In this document: positions 40,963 to 52,434 of the stretch, in pieces
How the letters are laid out: the number at the start of each line of letters is the position of its first letter
Numbering within the stretch: the stretch's first letter is position 1
NCBI RefSeq assembly: GCF_003030345.1
Contig: NZ_CP028158.1
Location: 6,882,001-6,946,000 of the forward strand
Source of the DNA: Plantactinospora sp. BC1
GTDB taxonomy: Bacteria; Actinomycetota; Actinomycetes; Mycobacteriales; Micromonosporaceae
Direction: 5' to 3'
DNA length: 64,000 bases
Notes under the pieces: model-generated
What the model was told of the DNA's origin: nothing
The model's database searches: none
What the model saw: the letters and a program-made list of their open reading frames with translations, nothing else
Program-made: the position numbers and the translations under genes

Positions 40963-43239
40963 GTGACGGACGGTGGGTTCCGGCTGAGCGTCGACTATGG
41001 AACGTCGCACACCGTTGCCGTGCTGCGCTGGCCCGACGGGCGTACCCGGCCGCTGCTCTTCGACGGTTCGCCACTGCTCTCCTCGGCCACCTGTGTGGAG
41101 GACGGCGGCACGATCCTGTCCGGTCAGGACGCCACCGATGCCGCCCGACGACGGCCACAGGGCTTCGAGCCGTACCCGAAGCGGCGCATCGGCGAGGGCA
41201 CCGTCTGGCTCGGCGACCGGGAGGTCTCGGTCACCTCGCTGGTGGCCGCCACGCTGGCCCGGGTCGCCGACGAGGCCAACCGGGTCGCGGGGCCGGGCGG
41301 GCCCGGATCGGTACTGTTCACCCTGCCCGCCACCTGGGGGCCGACCCGGCGGGCGCTGCTGGTGGCCGCCGCCGTCGAGGCCGGCCTGCCCGAGCCCCGG
41401 CTCGCCGCCGAGCCGGTCGCCGCCGCGAGCTATCTGGTGGGGGCCGGCGCGCTGGACGTGCCGGCCGGTGGTCACGTCGCCGTCTACGACCTCGGCGCGG
41501 GCACCTTCGACGCGACCGTCGTCCGGCGCACCGCCACGGGCGGCTTCACCGTGCTGGCCACCGACGGGCTGCCGCAGACCGGCGGGCTGGATCTCGACGC
41601 TGCGCTCGTCGACTACGTCGGCCGGCTGCTGGCGGAGCGCGATCCGGTCCGGTGGCGGCGGCTGACCGCACCGGGCGACGACGCCGACCGCCGCGCCGCG
41701 CTGGCCCTGTGGGACGAGGCCCGCCGGGCGAAGGAGAGCCTGAGCCGCACCTCGGTCGGTTACCTGCACGTCCCGCTCTTCGACGAGTCGGTGCCGGTCG
41801 GCCGGGAGGAGTTCGAACGGCTGGCCCGGGTGGTGCTGGACCGTACCGTCGAGGTGACGGTGGCGGCGGTCCGCTCGGCCGGCCCCGGAGTGGGACCGGC
41901 CACCGTCGTCCTGGTCGGGGGCGCGAGCCGGATCCCGCTGGCGGCGACGCTGCTGCACCGGGTCCTCGGGGTGGCACCGGTCGTCACCGAGCAGCCGGAA
42001 CTCGTGGTGGCCGAGGGCGCCCTCGCGGTGTCGCAGGACGACATACTGCCCACCGGCCCCGCCCCGGCACCGCCCGGCCTTCCCGTCCCGCCGCCACCCG
42101 GCGCTCCCGTGCCGCCGCCATCGCCACCCGGCCTCTCCTCGACCGGCTCTCCCCTGGCCGGCGTTCCGTCGACCGGCGTTCCGTCGACCGGCTCTCCCCC
42201 GACCGGCTCTCACCTATTACCGGTCGACCCGGTGGCGCCAGCGCCCGGACCACCGGTAGCGGTGCCCGGCCCGCCCGCTCCGGCCGCAGGGGCCGAGTCG
42301 CCGGCCGGCGCCCCGGGCCGGTCCGCGCCGCCCCAAAGAAGCGGTCGGATGCTCCTCGCCGGGGTACTCGCGTTGGCCGTACTGGCCGTGCTGGCCATCG
42401 TCGTGGTGCTGAATCCGTGGGACCGACCCGGTGGCGGGCCTGCCGACCCGACGCCGAGCGCCCAGGCGTCGCCGGTCTTCGCCGAGGGTACGACCATGCG
42501 ACGGTTGCAGGCGGCCCGGCAGATCGCGATCGGCAGCAGGTTCGACCTCCCCGGTACCGGCTACCGGGAGCCCGACGGGACGATGACCGGGTTCGACGTG
42601 GAGATCGGGCGGCTGATCGCCGGTGAACTCGGCATCGACCCCGACCGGGTGCGGTGGACCGACGCGCCGTTGACGGGCCGGGAAGAACTCATCGAGCAGG
42701 GCCGGGTCGACCTCGTCATCGCCAGCTACACCATCACCGAGACCCGCGCGCAACGGGTGGCGTTCGCCGGGCCGTACCACCTGCCGGGGCAGCAACTGCT
42801 GGTACGGGCCGGCGAGACCGCGATCACCGGCCCCGAGTCGCTACGGACCGAGGGCTACCGGATCTGCACCGTCACCGGAACTCCACACGGCAGGCGGCTC
42901 GAAGAGCACCTCGGTGGCCGGTCGCTGGCGCTGACGTCGCTCGGCGGCTACCAGGAGTGTGCGGAGGCGCTCGCGGCCGGCAGGGTCGACGCGATCACCG
43001 GGGACGGGCCGGCCCTGGTGGGACTGGCCGCCGGCAGCAGCGCCGGATTCCGCCTGGTGGGCCGGGCCTTCGATCCGCAGCCGTACGGGATCGGCCTGCG
43101 CCGGGGTGACGAGCCGTTCCGGGCCTGGCTCACCGAGACGTTGCGCCGGATCGTCGCCGACGGTCGTTGGCGGGCCGCCTGGCACCGCACACTTGGCCGG
43201 TACGACGAGCAGGAGCCCACCGTCCCCGAGGCCCGCTGA
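40963..43239 (+). CDS. Hsp70 ATPase domain fused to extracytoplasmic solute-binding domain
   Basis: 758 residues. Residues 5-365 are an Hsp70 actin-type ATPase (SVDYGTSHTVAVL, VYDLGAGTFDATVV, VVLVGGASRIPL); the substrate-binding domain is absent. A Pro/Ser/Thr linker with 15-bp repeats (about 366-460) leads to one membrane helix (463-484, LLAGVLALAVLAVLAIVVVL). The outer part (about 510-745) is a family-3 solute-binding domain (MTGFDVEIGRLIAGELG, then RVDLVIASYTIT) as in glutamate/polar amino acid transporters. The topology couples an external ligand to a cytoplasmic ATPase. No transporter genes are adjacent. Confidence 0.92.
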   Translation: MTDGGFRLSVDYGTSHTVAVLRWPDGRTRPLLFDGSPLLSSATCVEDGGTILSGQDATDAARRRPQGFEPYPKRRIGEGTVWLGDREVSVTSLVAATLARVADEANRVAGPGGPGSVLFTLPATWGPTRRALLVAAAVEAGLPEPRLAAEPVAAASYLVGAGALDVPAGGHVAVYDLGAGTFDATVVRRTATGGFTVLATDGLPQTGGLDLDAALVDYVGRLLAERDPVRWRRLTAPGDDADRRAALALWDEARRAKESLSRTSVGYLHVPLFDESVPVGREEFERLARVVLDRTVEVTVAAVRSAGPGVGPATVVLVGGASRIPLAATLLHRVLGVAPVVTEQPELVVAEGALAVSQDDILPTGPAPAPPGLPVPPPPGAPVPPPSPPGLSSTGSPLAGVPSTGVPSTGSPPTGSHLLPVDPVAPAPGPPVAVPGPPAPAAGAESPAGAPGRSAPPQRSGRMLLAGVLALAVLAVLAIVVVLNPWDRPGGGPADPTPSAQASPVFAEGTTMRRLQAARQIAIGSRFDLPGTGYREPDGTMTGFDVEIGRLIAGELGIDPDRVRWTDAPLTGREELIEQGRVDLVIASYTITETRAQRVAFAGPYHLPGQQLLVRAGETAITGPESLRTEGYRICTVTGTPHGRRLEEHLGGRSLALTSLGGYQECAEALAAGRVDAITGDGPALVGLAAGSSAGFRLVGRAFDPQPYGIGLRRGDEPFRAWLTETLRRIVADGRWRAAWHRTLGRYDEQEPTVPEAR
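42138..42214. repeat. 15-bp repeats in the linker of the Hsp70-SBP gene
   Basis: Four to five units of TCGACCGGCGTTCCG and variants, in frame, encoding the STGVP/STGSP linker. Confidence 0.75.
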
Positions 43240-44414: not shown

Positions 44415-45239
44415 TCAGCGCGAACCGACCGGTACCGGGTCGCGGTGGTGTGCCCGCCACAGCCAGCCGACGTCCCGGCCGAACGACCAGCAGAGCAGGG
44501 CCAGCGCCAGCCCGACCGACGCGTACGCCAGTGGTCCCGGAAGCAGCCCGGAACTCGCCACCGCCAGCACGATGCCCTGCATCGCGGCGACGGTCTTCCG
44601 GGAGAACCGGTGCGGCAGCGCCGCGTTGAGCCACGGCAGCGCCCAGGCGGCCGCGACGAAGAGGTACCGGAGGACGCCGATGGCCAGTACCCAGGCACCG
44701 AGGGACTGCGCCAGATAGGCACTCAGGACCAGGATGAGGAAGGCGTCGACCTCCATGTCGAACCGGGCGCCGAGCGCGGAGGTCGTGCCGGTGCGCCGGG
44801 CGACCTGACCGTCGACCCAGTCCAGCGCCAGCGCCACCCCTGCCACGGCGACCAGCAGCCCGACCGGGGCCGGCGACCAGAAGGAGGCCGCCACCAGCGC
44901 GGTCACCCCGCCGACCAGGGTGCCCCGGGCCAGGGTGACCTGGTTGGCCGCGCCGAGCATCCGGGCGCCGGAGCGGCGCATCGCCCGGCCGAGCAGCAGC
45001 CAGGTGACCACCGCGTACGCCGAACCGGCGAACCAGCCGGCGGGGCCCAGCCCGACCGTGGCGGAGAGCGCCGCCAGCAGCACGAACTGGACGGCCAGCC
45101 CCACCGCCGGTCCGTCCAGCTCCGCTGGCGTGCCCACCGGTACGGGGCGACGACCATCGAGCGGTACGGATACCGCCCGCTGCCGCGCGGGACGCAGGCG
45201 GACCAGGGATGTTGCGATCGGGTGATCACTGACAGTCAA
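44415..45239 (-). CDS. CDP-alcohol phosphatidyltransferase family protein
   Basis: 274 residues with about seven membrane helices. The family motif D-x2-DG-x2-AR-x8-G-x3-D-x3-D is complete (DWVDGQVARR, then GARFDMEVD). It transfers a phosphate-linked group from a CDP-activated donor to an alcohol. The TTG at 45239 has GGAGG four nt upstream. It is divergent from the dehydrogenase gene and may belong to the biosynthetic locus that follows. Confidence 0.9.
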   Translation of the reverse strand: MTVSDHPIATSLVRLRPARQRAVSVPLDGRRPVPVGTPAELDGPAVGLAVQFVLLAALSATVGLGPAGWFAGSAYAVVTWLLLGRAMRRSGARMLGAANQVTLARGTLVGGVTALVAASFWSPAPVGLLVAVAGVALALDWVDGQVARRTGTTSALGARFDMEVDAFLILVLSAYLAQSLGAWVLAIGVLRYLFVAAAWALPWLNAALPHRFSRKTVAAMQGIVLAVASSGLLPGPLAYASVGLALALLCWSFGRDVGWLWRAHHRDPVPVGSR

Positions 45240-45352
45240 CGTTCCTCCGTCACGGTTTGGCGCGATCGACGCGCCGCGTATCGTTGCCGCTGCCCACCCC
45301 CGTGGAAACGGAAAACACCCGCGTTCGGTTCATCGCACCGGGAAAGGAGTTG

Positions 45353-46345
45353 ATGACAGTGCGTGCCGAGGCCTTCTGGCTTGCCGCACCCGGCCGGGGC
45401 GAGATCCGGTCGGTACCGCTGGCGCCGCCCGGTGCCGACGAGGTGTTGGTCCGCACTCTCCACTCCGGGCTGAGCCGGGGCACCGAGACGCTGGTCTTCG
45501 CCGGCAAGGTGCCGCCGAGCCAGTACGCGACGATGCGCGCCCCGTTCCAGGAGGGCGACTTCCCCGGCCCGGTGAAGTACGGCTACCTCAACGTCGGCCT
45601 GGTCGAGGCGGGGCCGGAGCACCTGGTCGGCCGTACCGTCTTCTGCCTCTTCCCGCACCAGACCCGGTACGTCGTGCCGGCGTCGGCGGTCACCGTCGTA
45701 CCGGAGGGGGTGCCGGCGTCCCGGGCGGTGCTCGCCGGCACCGTGGAGACCGCGGTGAACGCGCTCTGGGACGCCGCGCCGCTGGTCGGCGACCGGGTCA
45801 CGGTCGTCGGGGCGGGGATGGTCGGCAGCGCGGTGGCCGGGGTCCTCGCCCGGTTCCCCGGCGCCCGGGTGCAGCTGGTCGACGCCGACCCCGGCCGGGC
45901 GGGAGTCGCCGCCGCGCTCGGCGTCGACTTCGCGGCGCCCGCCGACGCGTCCGGCGACCGTGACCTGGTGGTGCACGCCAGCGCCACCTCGGCCGGGCTG
46001 ACCCGGTCGCTGGAACTGCTCGCTCCGGAGGGGACCGTCGTCGAGCTGAGCTGGTACGGCGACCGCCAGGTCAGCGTGCCGCTCGGAGAGAACTTCCACT
46101 CCCGCCGGCTGGTCGTACGCAGCAGTCAGGTCGGTACGGTGTCACCGAACGTACGCGGGCGGCGTACCTTCGCGGACCGGCTCGCGCTCGCCCTGGAGCT
46201 GCTAGCCGACCCGGTCTTCGACGCCCTGCTCACCGGTGCCTGCGACTTCGCCGAGCTGCCGGAGGTGCTTCCCCGGCTGGTCAGCGGGGAACTATCCGCG
46301 CTGTGTCACGTGGTCAACTACGGTGACGCGGCGATCGACCGTTAG
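45353..46345 (+). CDS. Medium-chain dehydrogenase/reductase without catalytic zinc site
   Basis: 330 residues of the zinc-alcohol-dehydrogenase superfamily. The NAD(P) fold shows VTVVGAGMVGSAVA. The usual first zinc ligand Cys is replaced (GLSRGTETL), as in BchC-like and related SRGTE proteins, so a zinc-free redox role is probable. ATG 45353 has AAAGGAG upstream. First gene of the run 45.3-50.7 kb that includes the PTPS-like and glycosyltransferase genes. Confidence 0.85.
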   Translation: MTVRAEAFWLAAPGRGEIRSVPLAPPGADEVLVRTLHSGLSRGTETLVFAGKVPPSQYATMRAPFQEGDFPGPVKYGYLNVGLVEAGPEHLVGRTVFCLFPHQTRYVVPASAVTVVPEGVPASRAVLAGTVETAVNALWDAAPLVGDRVTVVGAGMVGSAVAGVLARFPGARVQLVDADPGRAGVAAALGVDFAAPADASGDRDLVVHASATSAGLTRSLELLAPEGTVVELSWYGDRQVSVPLGENFHSRRLVVRSSQVGTVSPNVRGRRTFADRLALALELLADPVFDALLTGACDFAELPEVLPRLVSGELSALCHVVNYGDAAIDR

Positions 46346-46420
46346 CTCCGACAGACTGACCAGCTGCGACAGAGCGACCCGATCGGGCGACCCGATCGGG
46401 GAAACACCAGGAGGAGATCC

Positions 46421-46819
46421 TTGTTCAGCATCACCGTCCGTGACCACATCATGATCGCGCACAGCTTCCGGGGCGAGGTCTTCGGCCCCGCCCAGAAGCT
46501 GCACGGGGCGACCTTCGTGGTGGACGCCACGTTCCGCCGGCCCGAACTCGACGCCGACAACATCGTCGTCGACATCGGGCTGGCCTCCGGAGCGTTGGCC
46601 GAGGTGCTGGGCGAACTCAACTACCGCAACCTGGACGACGAGCCCTCGCTCGCCGGGATCAACACCTCGACCGAGGCGCTCGCCCAGATCATCGCCGACC
46701 GGCTCGCCGAGCGGGTGCAGGCCGGGCAGCTCGGTGCGGGAGCGCGCGGGCTGACCGGCATCACCGTCACGCTGCACGAGTCGCACATCGCCTGGGCCAG
46801 CTACGAGCGGACCCTGTGA
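46421..46819 (+). CDS. 6-pyruvoyl-tetrahydropterin synthase homologue lacking catalytic residues
   Basis: 132-residue T-fold protein. The family's zinc site is incomplete: His14 and His28 are present but the third ligand is Ala30 (LHGAT instead of HGH). The Cys before that motif is absent, and the Asp-His pair is Asn67-Tyr68 (LNYRNL). The pterin-anchoring Glu120 (HESHIAW) is kept. I recall that the S. coelicolor homologue SCO6650 was likewise described as lacking zinc and the triad and not catalysing the PTPS reaction. The TTG at 46421 has AGGAGGAG upstream. Confidence 0.88.
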
Positions 46820-46868
46820 CGGGAGCGGATCCCGGCGGCCCGCCGGGGCCGGGGCCACGGACGGCGCG

Positions 46869-47039
46869 ATGAACACCGGCGACACGGGCGCCACGCTGAA
46901 CGCCGGGGACGGGCGGCCGGACGCGATGAACGCCGGCGACGCGGGCGCCACGCTGGGCGCCGGGGACGGGCGGCCGGACGCGATGAACGCCGGCGACGCG
47001 GGCGCCACGCTGGGCGCCGGAGATGGGCGGACGGGCGCG
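46869..47039. repeat. 57-bp minisatellite, three copies
   Basis: Units at 46869, 46926 and 46983, in frame in the 5' end of the glycosyltransferase gene. Confidence 0.9.
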
Positions 47040-48347
47040 ACGAGCGCCGGGACCGCTTACGTGGTGCTGCCCGGGGACATCGACGACCCGGCCACCCCGA
47101 GCGGCGGCAACGCCTACGACCGCCAGGTCATCACCGGGCTGGTCCGGCTCGGCTGGCAGGTGCGCGAACTCGCCGTGCCTGGGAGCTGGCCCCGGCCGGA
47201 CCCGGCCGAGCGGGCGGCGCTGGCCGCCGCGCTCGACGGCGTACCGGACGGCGCGGTGGTGCTGCTCGACGGGCTGGTGGCCTGCGGGGTGCCCGAGGTC
47301 GTCGGCCCGGCCGCCGCTCGGCTCCGGCTGGCGGTGCTGGTGCACCTGCCGCTGCGCGACGAGACCGGGCTGCCGCCCGATCTGGCCGCCCGCCTCGACG
47401 ACCTGGAACGGCGCACCCTGCGGGTCGCCCCGGCGATCGTCGCGACCAGCGCCGGGACGGGGCGGACGCTGGTGCGGCGACACGGCCTGCCCGCCGGGCG
47501 GGTGCACGTCGTGCCGCCCGGGGTCGCGGCCGCACCGCTGGCATCGGGTACGGACGGCGCCGCGAGCCTGCTCTGCGTCGCCTCGGTCATCCCCCGCAAG
47601 GGCCACGACGTACTGGTGGAGGCGCTGGCGAGCGTCGCCGACCGCCCCTGGACCTGCCGCTGTGTCGGCCCCGTGGACCGGGATCCGGAGTACGTCGACC
47701 GGCTGCGCCGCTCCGCCGCGGCGGCCGGACTGGCCGACCGGGTACTGTTCGCCGGTCCGCGTACCGGTGTCGAGCTGGCCGCCGACTACGCCGCCGCCGA
47801 CCTGCTGGTGCTGCCGTCCCGGGCCGAGCCGTACGGCATGGTCGTCACCGAGGCACTGGCCCGGGGCGTACCGGTGCTGGGCAGCGAGGTGGACGGGCTA
47901 CCGGAGGCGGTCGGCCGGGCACCCGACGGAGCCGTACCCGGACTGCTGGTACCGCCCGGTGACCCGGCGGCGCTGGCCACGGCGCTGCGCCGCTGGTTCG
48001 ACGAGCCGGACCTGCGGCAGCGGCTCCGGGCCGCCGCCCGGGACCGCCGGGCGGACCTGCCGGGCTGGGACGTCACCGCCGCCCGCCTCGGCGAGGTGTT
48101 GACCGCGCTGGCCCGGCAACCGGGACCGCCCCGGCAGCCACGGTCGGCCGAGGACGATCCGCCGCCCACCGGCCAGGACGATCCGCCGCCCACCGGCCAG
48201 GACGATCCGCCGCCCACCGGCCAGGACGATCCATCGCCCGCCGGCCAGGACGATCCATCGCCAGCCAGCCAGGACGATCCGTCGTCAGCCAGCCAGGGCG
48301 ATCCGTTGGAAGACCGCAGAAGTGAGCGCAGCGAGGGGACGGCATGA
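46869..48347 (+). CDS. GT4-family glycosyltransferase with repetitive termini
   Basis: 492 residues. The GT-B fold shows SVIPRKGHDVLVEAL and the EX7E motif EPYGMVVTEALARG, typical of retaining GT4 enzymes. The N-terminus is three 19-residue repeats (MNAGDAGATLGAGDGRPDA) and the C-terminus about six DDPPPTGQ-type repeats, both unlike the family and encoded by minisatellites. The true core is about residues 60-420. Transfers a sugar from a nucleotide donor to the pathway product by inference. Confidence 0.88.
   Translation: MNTGDTGATLNAGDGRPDAMNAGDAGATLGAGDGRPDAMNAGDAGATLGAGDGRTGATSAGTAYVVLPGDIDDPATPSGGNAYDRQVITGLVRLGWQVRELAVPGSWPRPDPAERAALAAALDGVPDGAVVLLDGLVACGVPEVVGPAAARLRLAVLVHLPLRDETGLPPDLAARLDDLERRTLRVAPAIVATSAGTGRTLVRRHGLPAGRVHVVPPGVAAAPLASGTDGAASLLCVASVIPRKGHDVLVEALASVADRPWTCRCVGPVDRDPEYVDRLRRSAAAAGLADRVLFAGPRTGVELAADYAAADLLVLPSRAEPYGMVVTEALARGVPVLGSEVDGLPEAVGRAPDGAVPGLLVPPGDPAALATALRRWFDEPDLRQRLRAAARDRRADLPGWDVTAARLGEVLTALARQPGPPRQPRSAEDDPPPTGQDDPPPTGQDDPPPTGQDDPSPAGQDDPSPASQDDPSSASQGDPLEDRRSERSEGTA
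48153..48306. repeat. 24-bp minisatellite, about six copies
   Basis: In-frame units encoding DDPPPTGQ and variants at the 3' end of the glycosyltransferase gene. Confidence 0.85.
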
Positions 48348-49207
48348 CTGAGCACGGCGAGCGAACCGGGCAATCCGACGGCGGCGACGACGATTCGCCG
48401 TACAGCCTGGCCTGGCTCGGCCTGCGCGAGCCGGCCGACGCCCGGGCCCGGGCGGACGAGCTGGTGGAAGCGCTGCGTGGCCTGCTGCCGGACGCCGGCC
48501 CGATCGTGATCCGGGACCTCGGCTGCGGCAGTGGTTCGATGGGGCGCTGGCTCGCCGGTCGGCTACCCGGTCCGCAGCAGTGGGTGCTCTACGACCGGGA
48601 GGCCGGGCTGCTTGAGCACGCCCGGGACCACCTGCCGCGCACCGCCGCCGACGGCTCGCCGGTCAGCGTGCTGACCCGGGAGTGCGACCTCACCCGGCTG
48701 ACCGCCGACGATCTCGCCGGGGCGTCGCTGGTCACCGCCTCGGCCCTGCTCGACCTGCTCAGCCTGGCCGAGGTGGAGCGGCTCGTCACGGCCTGCGTCG
48801 ACGCCGGCTGCCCGGCGCTGCTGACCCTCTCGGTGCTCGGCGAGGTGGAAATCTCCCCGGCCGAACCGCTCGACGCCGAGATCGCCGCCGCGTTCAACGC
48901 CCACCAGCGACGCGACACCGCCGACGGAGCGCGACTGCTCGGCCCGGACGCCGTGGACGCGACCGCCGAGGCGTTCCGCCGGCTCGGTGCGCAGGTGCGG
49001 GTCCGGCCCAGCCCGTGGCGGCTCGGCCCGGCCGACGCGGAACTGGCCGCGTGGTGGCTGCGCGGCTGGGTCGCCGCCGCCGTCGAGCACCGTCCGGAGC
49101 TGGCCGGCCCGGCCGCCGGATACCTGGAGCGCCGGCTCGCCGCCGCGACCGCCGGTGAGCTGCGGGTGGTCGTCGGGCACGCCGACCTGCTCGCCACGCA
49201 GGCATGA
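48344..49207 (+). CDS. SAM-dependent methyltransferase of the locus
   Basis: 287 residues. Motif I is RDLGCGSGSMGRWLA (about 58-72) and the acidic loop VLYDREAGLLEHAR follows. The ATG overlaps the glycosyltransferase stop by four nt, so the two are coupled. The substrate is unknown; context suggests methylation of a pterin/pyrimidine or sugar intermediate. Confidence 0.86.
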   Translation: MTEHGERTGQSDGGDDDSPYSLAWLGLREPADARARADELVEALRGLLPDAGPIVIRDLGCGSGSMGRWLAGRLPGPQQWVLYDREAGLLEHARDHLPRTAADGSPVSVLTRECDLTRLTADDLAGASLVTASALLDLLSLAEVERLVTACVDAGCPALLTLSVLGEVEISPAEPLDAEIAAAFNAHQRRDTADGARLLGPDAVDATAEAFRRLGAQVRVRPSPWRLGPADAELAAWWLRGWVAAAVEHRPELAGPAAGYLERRLAAATAGELRVVVGHADLLATQA

Positions 49208-49304
49208 GCCCGTACCGACCCGCTCGGCACGCACGAGTGAGCCCGTACCGACCCGCTCGGCATGCACGAGTGAGGCCGTACCGATCCGCTCGCCGGGCAC
49301 GGAT
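49206..49304. repeat. 33-bp tandem repeat, three copies
   Basis: Units at 49206, 49239 and 49272 begin at the methyltransferase stop. The unit length is a multiple of three, so it may be a former coding tail. Confidence 0.8.
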
Positions 49305-49366
49305 GAACCGCAGCCCCGGTTGCCTCGTATAACTGGCGAGACACCGATCGAAGGAGGCTGGCGGAT

Positions 49367-50743
49367 GTGCGGGGCGAGGACGGCACGGCGGGGAGTTCCG
49401 GCGGACCGGGCGGCGTCGTGAGGCGTACGTTCTGGGCCTGGGCACGGCTGCTCGGCGGTGCCGCGATCCTCGGCTTCCTGCTGTGGCGGCTCGGCACCGA
49501 GGCGTTCCTGGACGGGCTGCGGGTGATCGACGCCGGCACCCTGCTCGCCGCGCTCGGGATCGGGCTGCTGACCACGGTGTTCAGCGCGTGGCGCTGGTGC
49601 CTGGTGGCCCGAGGGCTCGGCATCCGGTTGCCGCTGGGCAGGGCCGTCGCCGACTACTACCGGGGGCTCTTCCTCAACGCCGCGCTGCCGGGCGGCGTAC
49701 TCGGGGACGTGCACCGGGCGGTGCGGCACGGCCGGGACGTGGACGACGTGAGCCGCAGCGTCCGGGCGGTGGTGCTGGAACGTTCGGCCGGACAGATCGT
49801 GCTGGTCACCGTCGGCGTACTGGTGCTGCTGCTCGGCTATCCCGCCCCGCTGCCGGCCGGGGTCGGCTCCAATCCGACCGGCCCGCTGCTGGTCGTCGTC
49901 CTGGCTGCGGCCGGGGCGCTCGGTCTCGCCTGCTGGCTGGTACTGCGGTCGCGACGGCGACTGCACGCTTCCGCTGCGGACCACTCCCCTTCCGCTGCGG
50001 ACGGCGCCACCCCGGGACGGGTACGGCCTACCAGCCCGGAGGCGGTCCGCCCGGCCGGTTCGCGGTGGCGCCGGGCGTGCCGGACGGCCGTTTCCGACGT
50101 ACGGCTCGGGTTGCTCGCCCGGAACAGTTGGCCGGGAGTGGCGCTCTCCTCCGCCGTGGTGCTGGCCGGACATCTCGGCACCTTCGTCGTCGCGGCCCGG
50201 GCCGCCGGCTCGTCGGCGCCGGTCGGCCAGCTCGTACCGCTGATGCTGCTGGCCCTGATCGCGATGGCGCTGCCGCTGAACGTCGGCGGCTGGGGTCCCC
50301 GGGAGGGCGTCACCGCCTGGGCCTTCGGCGCCGCCGGGCTGGGCGCCTCGCTCGGTCTCACCGTCGCCGTGGTCTACGGGGTGCTCGCCTTCGTCGCGAG
50401 CCTGCCCGGAGCCGTGGTGTTGGTCACCCGCTGGATCGCCGGGCTCCGCACGACCGAAACCGGACCGACCGCGATCAGCACAACCGCGATCAGCCAGACC
50501 GTGATCAGCACGACCGCGATCAGCCAGACGGCAGCCGTGGCACCTGCGGCCATGGCGTCCGCGACCCTGGCGTCCGCAGCCGTGGCACCCGCGACCGTAG
50601 CGTCCGCAGCGCTGGCACCCGCGACCGTGGCGTCCGCAACGCTGGCACCCGCGACCGTAGCGTCCGCAACGCTGGCACCCGCGACCGTGGCGTCCGGCAA
50701 GCGGGTGACGGCGCGCCTCCGGCTACCCCGAGCGGTCGCGTGA
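49367..50743 (+). CDS. UPF0104 / lysylphosphatidylglycerol-synthase-TM-like membrane protein
   Basis: 458 residues with about eight helices. The family motif appears as YYRGLFLNAALPGGVLGDVHRA and later PLNVGGWGPREGV. These proteins are proposed flippases or transporters of lipid-linked products. GTG 49367 has AAGGAGG nine nt upstream. An ATG at 49365 would give an 18-codon peptide whose stop overlaps a GTG at 49418, an alternative start. The C-terminal tail is repetitive (LAPATVASAT). Confidence 0.83.
   Translation: MRGEDGTAGSSGGPGGVVRRTFWAWARLLGGAAILGFLLWRLGTEAFLDGLRVIDAGTLLAALGIGLLTTVFSAWRWCLVARGLGIRLPLGRAVADYYRGLFLNAALPGGVLGDVHRAVRHGRDVDDVSRSVRAVVLERSAGQIVLVTVGVLVLLLGYPAPLPAGVGSNPTGPLLVVVLAAAGALGLACWLVLRSRRRLHASAADHSPSAADGATPGRVRPTSPEAVRPAGSRWRRACRTAVSDVRLGLLARNSWPGVALSSAVVLAGHLGTFVVAARAAGSSAPVGQLVPLMLLALIAMALPLNVGGWGPREGVTAWAFGAAGLGASLGLTVAVVYGVLAFVASLPGAVVLVTRWIAGLRTTETGPTAISTTAISQTVISTTAISQTAAVAPAAMASATLASAAVAPATVASAALAPATVASATLAPATVASATLAPATVASGKRVTARLRLPRAVA
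50581..50697. repeat. 30-bp minisatellite, four copies
   Basis: In-frame units encoding LAPATVASAT in the tail of the membrane protein gene. Confidence 0.85.
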
Positions 50744-50805
50744 CCGGCGGCAAGGCCTCCCGCACGCCCTTCGCCGCCCCGGCCGGCCCGGCGGCCGTCC
50801 ACGGG

Positions 50806-51552
50806 TCACGTCGCGGCGAACCGCTCCGAGAGGGCGTAGCGCAACAGCACCACATCGTCGATCTGGCAGACCTCGGCGAGTTCCGCCCGGCGGTCGGGTC
50901 CCCACGGAAACCGGCCGTCGCCGACGAAGCGCGGCGCCCGGGAGTCACCGACGAAGAATGGCGCGATCACCAACTGCAACTCGTCGGCGAGGCCGGCGGT
51001 GAGGAACTGGGTGTGTATCTGCCCGCCGCCCTCGACCATCAGCCGGGCCACGCCCCGGGCGTGCAGGTCGGCGAGCACCATCTCCAGGTCGACGGGGTCG
51101 CCGCTGTCGACCACGGTCGCCACCTCGCCGAGACGCTTACGGGCCTCGTCCAGGCTGGCGCTCGCACAGTAGACGATCTTGTCGATGTCACCCGTGACGA
51201 AGAACCGGGCGGCCGGGTCCAGGTCGGCCCGACCGGTCACGGTCACCTTCAGCGGTGTCGGCCGCAGTCCCCGGGCCACCCGCTCGGCCCGGCGCCGCGC
51301 GGACCGGACCAGGAGTCGCGGGTTGTCCTGGCGGACCGTACCCGCGCCGACCAGGATGGCATCGCATTCCGCCCGTACCGCATCGACCCGGTCGAAATCC
51401 GCGTCGTTGGAGAGCAGCAGGCGCGTCTCGCCGGCGTTGTCCAGGTAACCGTCGATTGACATGCCGCAGCTGAGCAGTACGTACGGCCGGTCGCCCACTT
51501 GTCGCACCTCTCCGTCGATGAACAGCCCGCGCGGTGGGTCAGTCTTCCGCAT
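50806..51552 (-). CDS. RibD C-terminal-type (5-amino-6-ribosylaminouracil) reductase-like protein
   Basis: 248 residues, reductase domain only; the RibD deaminase domain is absent. Signatures are YVLLSCGMSIDGYL, AILVGAGTVRQDNPRL and RLMVEGGGQIHTQFL, shared with DHFR-fold pyrimidine reductases. It is divergent from the GTP cyclohydrolase II gene (174 nt) and probably reduces the ribosyl side chain of a product derived from it. Confidence 0.88.
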   Translation of the reverse strand: MRKTDPPRGLFIDGEVRQVGDRPYVLLSCGMSIDGYLDNAGETRLLLSNDADFDRVDAVRAECDAILVGAGTVRQDNPRLLVRSARRRAERVARGLRPTPLKVTVTGRADLDPAARFFVTGDIDKIVYCASASLDEARKRLGEVATVVDSGDPVDLEMVLADLHARGVARLMVEGGGQIHTQFLTAGLADELQLVIAPFFVGDSRAPRFVGDGRFPWGPDRRAELAEVCQIDDVVLLRYALSERFAAT

Positions 51553-51726
51553 CGTCGGCGCCCGTCCCCGCCGACCTCGCCCCGATGCTGGTCAGGTGGC
51601 CCGCATCGGATGACCGCGCACCGGGTACCAGCCTCCACGCTCTGCAGATGCGCGGGCGGGCAGACCCCCGAGAGAGGCACCCTAGATCTTCAGGGCGTAC
51701 GCACCCGACCCCAAGAGGGAGAACTG

Positions 51727-52434
51727 ATGCCGCACACACCGCCCCAGGTAACCACCGCCGAGGCGCCCGAAACGCTCGACGCCGTCGGGCCGGTTCCGGC
51801 CGCCACCGTCCGTCGGCAGGTGACCGTACCGCTCCGCTTCGCCGACGGCTACACCGCGACCGCGAGCGTCTTCACCTTCGACGGGCTGGTGGACGGCCGC
51901 GAGCATCTCGCACTCGGTCTGGGTGACTGGCGGAGCAGACTGGGCCAGTCCCTCGACGGCACTGCCGCGCCGCTGGTGCGGCCGCACAGCGAGTGCATGA
52001 CCGGTGACGTCTTCGGGAGTCAGCGGTGCGACTGCGGCCCGCAGCTACGGGAGGCGGTCGAGCGGATCAGCGACCAGGGCGGGTTCCTGCTCTACCTGCG
52101 GCAGGAGGGCCGGGGCATCGGGCTGTACGCGAAACTCGACGCGTACGCCCTACAGGACGTGGGGCTGGACACCTACGAGGCCAACCTGGCGCTCGGGCAC
52201 GGCGAGGACGAGCGGGACTACACCGTGGCGGCGCAGATGCTGCGTACCCTCGGCGCGGACCGGATCGCGCTGCTGAGCAACAACCCCGACAAGGCGGAAC
52301 AACTCGACCGGCTCGGCGTGCAGGTCGCGGAGCGGGTACCCACCGGTGTGCACCTCTCCGCCGCCAACGCCCGATATCTGAAGACGAAGGCCAACCACAC
52401 CGCGCACACCATCGACCTGCCGCTCGCCGACTGA
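51727..52434 (+). CDS. ribA: GTP cyclohydrolase II
   Basis: 235 residues. Zinc ligands Cys90, Cys101 and Cys103 (HSECMTGD, RCDCG), and LRQEGRGIGL are complete. Tyr140 in DAYALQD matches E. coli RibA Tyr105, needed for deformylation. SCO6655 of S. coelicolor is reported to have Met at this place and to release a formylated product; this protein keeps Tyr. It lacks the RibB half found in housekeeping RibBA of many actinobacteria, so it is probably dedicated to the locus. RBS GAGGGAG precedes ATG 51727. Confidence 0.92.
   Translation: MPHTPPQVTTAEAPETLDAVGPVPAATVRRQVTVPLRFADGYTATASVFTFDGLVDGREHLALGLGDWRSRLGQSLDGTAAPLVRPHSECMTGDVFGSQRCDCGPQLREAVERISDQGGFLLYLRQEGRGIGLYAKLDAYALQDVGLDTYEANLALGHGEDERDYTVAAQMLRTLGADRIALLSNNPDKAEQLDRLGVQVAERVPTGVHLSAANARYLKTKANHTAHTIDLPLAD

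Follow-up and report, generated by a model that had tools for sequence, protein, structure and literature searches.

A conserved gene set in Plantactinospora sp. BC1 that may build a membrane-linked conjugate from a GTP-derived pyrimidine

Introduction

What might an actinobacterium make with a GTP-opening enzyme and a riboflavin-type reductase encoded beside a relative of pterin synthases, a glycosyltransferase, a methyltransferase and two membrane proteins? Such a set lies at positions 44415..52434 of a 64,000-nucleotide stretch of DNA (the window) from Plantactinospora sp. BC1 (contig NZ_CP028158.1, positions 6,882,001 to 6,946,000), whose genome of 8.33 Mb is a single contig. The original prediction, made from the sequence alone, described nine genes for a GTP-derived pyrimidine or pteridine glycoconjugate. 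Gene calling by codon GC content, with Pfam and NCBIfam scans, placed all of the families that it named at this locus but resolved eight genes rather than nine (Table 1): a CDP-alcohol phosphotransferase (CDP-OH), a dehydrogenase of the medium-chain dehydrogenase/reductase (MDR) superfamily, a protein of the 6-pyruvoyltetrahydropterin synthase (PTPS)/QueD fold, a family 4 glycosyltransferase (GT4), a class I S-adenosylmethionine (SAM)-dependent methyltransferase (MT), a flippase-like membrane protein (LPG_synthase_TM, hereafter LPG_TM), a RibD_C reductase and GTP cyclohydrolase II (GCHII). Pfam matches above cut-off upheld the naming of GCHII, of a stand-alone reductase (no deaminase domain is present) and of the GT4, MT, flippase-like and CDP-alcohol proteins. 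We propose, with moderate confidence, that the eight genes work as a single unit, made up of two or three modules, by which a GTP-derived diaminopyrimidine would be reshaped, decorated and linked to the membrane.

Conservation of the gene set

Comparison of gene order, the check suggested with the original prediction, revealed a gene set kept together well beyond Streptomyces, to a degree far from what chance would give. The locus sample comprised the best 80 of at least 521 confirmed relatives in a species-genome collection and leans to close relatives; counts over it exclude the two loci of the window genome itself (L001 and L002). The PTPS-like gene and GT4 were found in all 80 loci, MDR and MT in 79 each, LPG_TM in 78, CDP-OH in 75, GCHII in 70, and RibD_C (E ≤ 1e-8) in 26. 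Contig ends cut both loci that lack LPG_TM, several of the 10 that lack GCHII, and one of the five that lack CDP-OH, the other four (Micromonospora L020, L028, L033, and L036) being uncut. In the window's family, 100 of 150 genomes carry the PTPS-like gene (E ≤ 1e-20), and 99 of these 100 have a strong MDR match, the exception (G399) being 69% complete; six further family genomes with only weak MDR matches (36–41% identity) were left out of the MDR count. The PTPS-like gene is also present in 50 of 121 Streptomyces genomes (E ≤ 1e-20). At the scale of the phylum it is patchy, since a close relative (about 60% identity or more) occurs in only 10 of the 85 genomes with any match, among 396 genomes. 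Five loci around ordinary or more distant PTPS/QueD matches (L156 and L158–L161) served as a control: at E ≤ 1e-3 neither MDR nor GT4 was matched in any of them, and two (L160 and L161) did not match the PTPS query a second time. Second PTPS copies in two genomes (G562 and G624) stand alone.

More distant relatives come from a family (f18) that we take to be Rubrobacteraceae, in which 24 genomes have a PTPS match and 13 were fetched as larger stretches. All 13 stretches hold RibD_C, MDR, and PTPS, and 12 also GT4; in L145, the f18 locus in which MT was sought by Pfam, GT4 and MT are fused in one protein. Downstream of the operon in L145 are PHP-domain, AlaX-like, and DUF192 genes, with related open reading frames (ORFs) in several other f18 loci, and the opposite flank of the operon carries an acyltransferase-like gene family in 13 f18 loci (L144–L157 except L156).

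Outside actinobacteria, the survey covered plasmid records, of which 25 had a PTPS-like match and 22 were read (H13, H16, and H19 were left out). In 20 of the 22 plasmid loci, MDR is no more than 1 kb away from PTPS, by annotation or tblastn. Relatives of all eight window genes occur together on six Rhizobiaceae plasmids (L282, L285, L286, L287, L293, and L294), at 27–55% identity, and, with a creatininase gene, on a plasmid of Streptomyces globisporus (L295). The gammaproteobacterium Candidatus Thiodictyon has MDR, PTPS, GT4, MT, cytochrome b, RibD, and CDP-OH in one row, and five haloarchaeal plasmids carry CDP-OH, MDR, PTPS, and MT (the MT of L297 from sub-threshold Pfam matches only). The smallest set, MDR-PTPS-MT-RibD, was found on two Rhodobacterales plasmids (L289 and L291). 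GT4 is absent between PTPS and MT in these two and in L298, L300, and L301 (5 of 22 plasmid loci); four of the five have a GT4 annotated about 4 kb off. In four proteobacterial clusters the annotation places a small cytochrome b next to RibD (Table 1); that of L286 is assigned to b561 (PF01292) by Pfam.

The two Rhodobacterales sets come without a CDP-OH or LPG_TM match, and this would favor a different product: an exported, soluble metabolite or antibiotic of the modified pterin or pyrimidine kind, with the two membrane proteins serving transport or protection and no lipid attached. Toxoflavin-type pathways start from GCHII and RibD-like enzymes. Such a product is possible, although we think it unlikely, because CDP-OH accompanies the core in nearly all of the 80 actinobacterial loci, is annotated in all five haloarchaeal loci, and has an intact motif in the window, and because presence in two-thirds of the genomes of a family would, as a matter of general knowledge, be unusual for an antibiotic.

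Exchangeable supply enzymes

The window GCHII has the PF00925 domain and a Tyr (AYALQD) at the position of Tyr105 in Escherichia coli RibA; release of formate and pyrophosphate is predicted from its family. Among the 80 loci, 15 encode such a Tyr-type GCHII, none with a creatininase gene, and 50 encode a Met-type and five a His-type enzyme, with a creatininase-family gene in 55 of 55. GCHII paralogues from 14 genomes comprised six of Met-type, all with creatininase, 22 of Tyr-type (including the window GCHII and its riboflavin paralogue), none with it, and two that could not be aligned. The Met-type with creatininase recurs in 44 further Streptomyces cluster stretches (36 + 8) and in two of nine plasmid GCHIIs, the other seven being Tyr-type without creatininase; this last combination was also found in three far-actinobacterial and 21 cluster-free stretches, one more cluster-free stretch being unalignable. 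These sets partly share genomes. In a quick tree, the cluster GCHIIs come from different parts: the window type, a Met/His clade, and L029 and L061, on long branches.

BrbF, annotated as a creatininase, is a proven formamidase that acts on the formyl intermediate (FAPy/AFRPP), according to PMC9478397. The constant company of creatininase genes and Met/His-type GCHII would fit a cyclohydrolase that halts at the formyl stage and is followed by a deformylase. SCO6655 of Streptomyces coelicolor is said to stop at the formyl intermediate by way of a Met120 switch (reportedly work of Spoonamore in 2006). A third type of enzyme is found in haloarchaea: GTP cyclohydrolase III (GCH III), which is not homologous to GCHII, stands directly before MDR on three Haloarcula plasmids, and in Haloarcula halophila (L298) the archaeal GCH III (PF05165, 271.7 bits) overlaps MDR by 8 bases. 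On these family assignments, the opening of GTP falls to interchangeable enzymes: Tyr-type GCHII, Met/His-type GCHII with a creatininase, or GCH III. Because such different enzymes, including the archaeal one, stand beside the same core, a GTP-derived pyrimidine as substrate is well supported.

The best NCBIfam model for the window RibD_C is TIGR01508 (144.9 bits), the archaeal reductase of 2,5-diamino-6-ribosylamino-4(3H)-pyrimidinone 5′-phosphate (DARPP), and its best match in the Protein Data Bank (PDB) is 5xux. Genome-wide searches for this reductase covered Streptomyces and the window's family. Window-type RibD_C (E ≤ 1e-30) is present in 57 of 121 Streptomyces genomes: 41 have both PTPS and RibD_C, nine PTPS only, 16 RibD_C only, and 55 neither (odds ratio 15.7, uncorrected for kinship). 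In many Streptomyces, RibD_C is located outside the cluster, next to a Tyr-type GCHII of its own. The nine genomes with PTPS only yielded eight complete clusters, all eight with a diverged internal RibD_C (26–28% identity), and a ninth cut by a contig end. No internal RibD_C match was detected in any of the 40 clusters (36 complete, four cut) fetched from the 41 genomes that have both; the one left out of these (G625) shows MDR-PTPS-RibD_C on a contig starting inside MDR. This split fits a stand-alone reductase that is required. Among genomes that lack PTPS, L232 and L234 show a deaminase-like ORF beside RibD_C, by our reading of matches and ORF lists only.

Pairwise protein distances among 37 hand-picked loci (13 to 37 per pair) separate two modules. 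Distances for PTPS correlate closely with those for MDR (r = 0.94), GT4 (0.91), MT (0.92), LPG_TM (0.92), and CDP-OH (0.83), and loosely with those for RibD_C (0.53) and GCHII (0.58); GCHII and RibD_C correlate with each other at 0.91 (13 loci). In 500 permutations no correlation as high as the observed one arose for any pair, but taxonomic grouping inflates the values. The PTPS distances thus point to a core and an exchangeable supply pair, and we read the core as inherited or transferred jointly and the pair as exchanged as a unit. The tighter tracking of GCHII with RibD_C than of either with the core could also come from a spare pair for riboflavin or F420 supply that had settled next to an MDR-PTPS-GT4-MT cluster for a membrane glycolipid with no relation to it, and the occurrence of the pair elsewhere in many Streptomyces, with RibD_C frequent in the absence of the cluster, agrees with this. 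We nevertheless find it quite improbable, since distinct and partly non-homologous GTP-opening enzymes are found beside the same core in separate lineages, and since the reductase joins the core in distant phyla.

The PTPS-like protein and its partners

The PTPS-like protein matches PDB entry 3d7j, which is SCO6650 (E 3e-66); its best named PTPS match, among the matches listed, is from Phytohabitans maris (86%). The structure of SCO6650 was reportedly published without a function, and its paper is reported to describe neither PTPS activity nor zinc. In the window protein, which belongs to the PF01242 fold family by score and by the 3d7j match, the catalytic Cys is replaced by Ala24 and the Asp-His pair by Asn67-Tyr68, in line with the absence of catalytic residues noticed in the original prediction; zinc ligands His14 and His28 are present, and the third is Ala30. 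Glu120, His14, and His28 are invariant across 20 aligned PTPS-like sequences, with Ala24 and Tyr68 in place of the catalytic Cys and His. No member of three partly overlapping alignments (20, 9, and 13 cluster sequences) has the catalytic Cys or His, and the triad Asp is retained only in L154 and L280. Because the f18 relatives (about 35–40% identity) and haloarchaeal L297 retain the third zinc His without the triad Cys and His, the catalytic triad may have been lost earlier than the zinc site.

Its PF01242 match and the product names in public records would make this protein a plain 6-carboxytetrahydropterin synthase (QueD) that serves a queuosine-type pathway. This reading is scarcely credible, and we reject it: all aligned cluster members have other residues in place of the catalytic Cys and His (the QueD-like control L158 retains all three triad residues), the score against the QueD equivalog is 33.7 for a cut-off of 89.25, and no QueE, QueC, or GTP cyclohydrolase I was found among the ten window proteins scanned, the other loci not having been searched for them. 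Public plasmid records label the PTPS-like proteins as 6-carboxytetrahydropterin synthase, many with the term queuosine biosynthetic process; because those aligned have lost the catalytic Cys and His, this annotation is probably wrong.

The sequence also fits the claim of a zinc-free dehydrogenase, as the MDR scores below the ADH_zinc_N cut-off, lacks the zinc ligands of zinc-dependent MDR alcohol dehydrogenases, and in 18 of 18 aligned rows has S-x-G-T-E at what we take to be the position of their Cys motif. Its invariant blocks are S-x-G-T-E, PHQ, SWY, FH, and SSQVG, and its closest NCBIfam model, BchC, is far below cut-off (48 vs. 291 bits). The CDP-alcohol phosphotransferase has about five hydrophobic segments and an intact catalytic motif (DWVDGQVARRTGTTSALGARFDMEVD), of the form D-x2-D-G-x2-A-R-x8-G-x3-D-x3-D. 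LPG_TM contains the PF03706 domain and at least seven hydrophobic segments; movement of a substrate is predicted from its family.

Proposed pathway

In the supply module, GCHII would open GTP to DARPP, which the stand-alone RibD_C would reduce to the 2,5-diamino-6-ribitylamino compound. In riboflavin biosynthesis, bacteria normally deaminate first and archaea reduce first; the bacterial order explains why a dedicated reductase would be needed, and the archaeal order would account for the lack of an annotated RibD on the five haloarchaeal stretches. Since the reductase comes closest to the archaeal type, which acts before deamination, and no deaminase was found among the window genes or in the annotation around the core of the plasmid stretches that were read, the branch point is likely 2,5-diamino-6-ribitylamino-4(3H)-pyrimidinone 5′-phosphate, and the 2-amino group would stay. 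In the core, MDR and the PTPS-fold protein, which are nearly always neighbors, would together act on the diaminopyrimidine, with the conserved T-fold Glu holding its 2-amino-4-oxo edge. MT, and usually also GT4, would then decorate the product. Methylation probably precedes glycosylation or is more central to the pathway, as MT belongs to the smallest sets and GT4 does not; glycosylation may be a late decoration, given the five plasmid loci without GT4 between PTPS and MT and the two more with a lone PTPS-like gene. The membrane module (the CDP-alcohol phosphotransferase and the flippase-like protein) would link the product to a phospholipid or move it across the membrane, and its two families suggest a membrane product. 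Each of these reactions is assigned from the family of its enzyme; the order of steps, closure of a pterin ring, the target of glycosylation, and the lipid linkage are speculative. Of the original interpretation, the GTP-derived pyrimidine has gained support from the exchangeable GTP-opening enzymes at the same core, and the glycoconjugate has become weaker through the loci in which GT4 is missing from its usual place; both it and the lipid anchor are plausible.

A bolder version, which we think rather unlikely, is that the product is an undescribed membrane-bound redox cofactor or lipid of bacteria and haloarchaea, made by a dihydropterin route that dispenses with GTP cyclohydrolase I. After opening of GTP by GCHII (or by GCH III and a formamidase), RibD_C would reduce C1′ of the ribose and MDR would oxidize C2′, and the PTPS-fold protein, without its old catalytic residues, would close the pyrazine ring on the C5 amine; the C2′ oxidation and this ring closure are chemistry on paper only. 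The 6-substituted dihydropterin so formed would receive methyl and sugar groups, and the CDP-alcohol enzyme would attach it to a phospholipid. The cytochrome b beside the reductase in four proteobacterial clusters hints at a redox-active product, and could be its electron partner.

Relation to known systems

The S. coelicolor counterpart named in the original prediction was borne out: besides the SCO6650 match, SCO6655 is tabulated as GTP cyclohydrolase II in PMC2853524, so that this locus shares with the window the same PTPS-like gene family and a GTP cyclohydrolase II. The sampled Streptomyces loci (that of S. coelicolor is not among them) differ from the window in having Met-type GCHII with creatininase, where the window has the Tyr-type, and a diverged reductase inside the cluster or a window-type one elsewhere, where the window has its reductase inside. 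The opening steps of archaeal riboflavin biosynthesis (GCH III ArfA, formamidase ArfB, and reductase ArfC; BrbF in bacteria) would, by family, give the same first intermediates, but no deaminase, lumazine synthase, or riboflavin synthase is present among the window genes, which encode MDR, PTPS-like, MT, GT4, and membrane proteins instead. With QueD and PTPS-I/II/III, the PTPS-like protein shares the T-fold family PF01242 and the conserved Glu120, but cluster members lack the catalytic Cys and His, and the third zinc His is confined to f18 and one haloarchaeal member. At the level of families, a CDP-alcohol phosphotransferase, a GT4, and a flippase-like protein side by side recall phosphatidylinositol-type glycolipid assembly, from which the window set differs in being coupled to a supply of nucleotide-derived pyrimidine.

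No described product of this gene set was found in the open-access literature of PubMed Central, in agreement with the original prediction. A gene set so widespread (100 of 150 family genomes, 50 of 121 Streptomyces, and rhizobial and haloarchaeal plasmids) should serve the cell usefully. The exchange of supply enzymes points to its substrate and makes SCO6650 part of a pathway that can be tested; the proposal would also correct the public entries that name the PTPS-like protein a queuosine enzyme. If the product is a lipid-linked pterin, it would add a new class to the molecules of membranes.

Observations that weigh against a single unit

Several observations count against our proposal. RibD_C falls under the NCBIfam cut-offs (186.45 for TIGR01508). 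Window-type RibD_C is common without the cluster, in 144 of 150 family genomes (E ≤ 1e-25), and being near-universal there its presence proves nothing; in Streptomyces, 16 of the 57 positive genomes have no PTPS-like gene. No more than 79 of the 100 PTPS-positive family genomes have RibD_C within 12 kb of PTPS; the other 21 include two with no place listed, one with no match, and some broken assemblies. The in-cluster vs. unlinked reductase is one tree change among 44, so that row counts overstate independence, and we rejected this pattern as independent proof. The loss of Tyr in GCHII is likewise a single change (quick tree of 98 rows, branch moderately supported), and the association of Met/His-type GCHII with creatininase was rejected as independent proof for the same reason. 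Two loci (L012 and L040) have a creatininase gene and no GCHII in the stretch, and the creatininase-family protein of L073 scores best with the model of the mycofactocin peptidase MftE (133.8, cut-off 172) and weakly with ArfB (38.1, cut-off 180). The three GCH III plasmids are close relatives and may represent one event.

Gene sets are also incomplete or mixed in places. No CDP-OH or LPG_TM match was found in the f18 loci, and GCHII only in L154. Neorhizobium L288 has only MDR, PTPS, GT4, and MT, and Arthrobacter L292 only MDR, PTPS, and GT4. Lone PTPS-like genes exist (L284 and L296 on plasmids; L230 and L231), and control L158 has GCHII and a weak RibD_C match 5–7 kb from its QueD-like gene.

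Locus layout and neighboring genes

MDR and PTPS are 75 bases apart and PTPS and GT4 49 bases, the MT start overlaps the GT4 stop by 4 bases, and RibD_C and GCHII are transcribed divergently (Table 1). A sequence resembling a ribosome-binding site (RBS) favors 45353 as the MDR start, within a longer ORF from 45257; by the same kind of signal, GCHII probably starts at 51727 rather than at 51499, where its ORF opens. The true GT4 start is probably near 47061. Both the GT4 and LPG_TM frames have low-complexity tandem repeats at their ends (MNAGDAGATLGAGDGRPDA; DDPPPTGQ; APATVASATL), so that the open frames may exceed the real proteins or vary among strains.

Table 1. Genes of the window locus and accessory genes of related clusters (positions of the latter refer to their own loci).
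Feature	Position	Strand	Evidence
CDP-alcohol phosphotransferase (CDP-OH_P_transf)	44415..45239	-	Pfam 50 bits, cut-off 22
MDR-superfamily dehydrogenase without zinc-ligand motif	45353..46345	+	ADH_zinc_N 23.5 bits, below cut-off 31.8
PTPS/QueD-fold protein, relative of SCO6650 (PDB 3d7j)	46421..46819	+	PTPS 80.7 bits, cut-off 22.4
GT4 glycosyltransferase	46869..48347	+	Glycos_transf_1 105.8 bits, cut-off 26.4
Class I SAM methyltransferase (MT)	48344..49207	+	Methyltransf_25 28.6 bits, cut-off 27
LPG_synthase_TM flippase-like membrane protein	49367..50743	+	PF03706 119.4 bits, cut-off 33.4
Stand-alone RibD_C reductase	50806..51552	-	PF01872 148.6 bits, cut-off 24.1
GTP cyclohydrolase II (GCHII)	51727..52434	+	PF00925 GTP_cyclohydro2 184.7 bits, cut-off 23.3
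Creatininase-family protein, sister cluster	L073 14128-14904		PF02633 211.9 bits (one protein scanned)
Cytochrome b	L280 11528-12085		annotation beside RibD
Cytochrome b	L285 11055-11582		annotation beside RibD
Cytochrome b	L286 11026-11565		annotation beside RibD
Cytochrome b	L287 11011-11544		annotation beside RibD

Just upstream of the cluster, at 40963-43239 (+), a single protein combines an Hsp70-type ATPase domain with an SBP_bac_3 extracellular solute-binding domain, joined via a Pro-rich hydrophobic stretch, the ligand-binding part apparently being outside the cell. It was matched at 48–50% identity near the cluster in two Micromonospora loci (L020 and L033).

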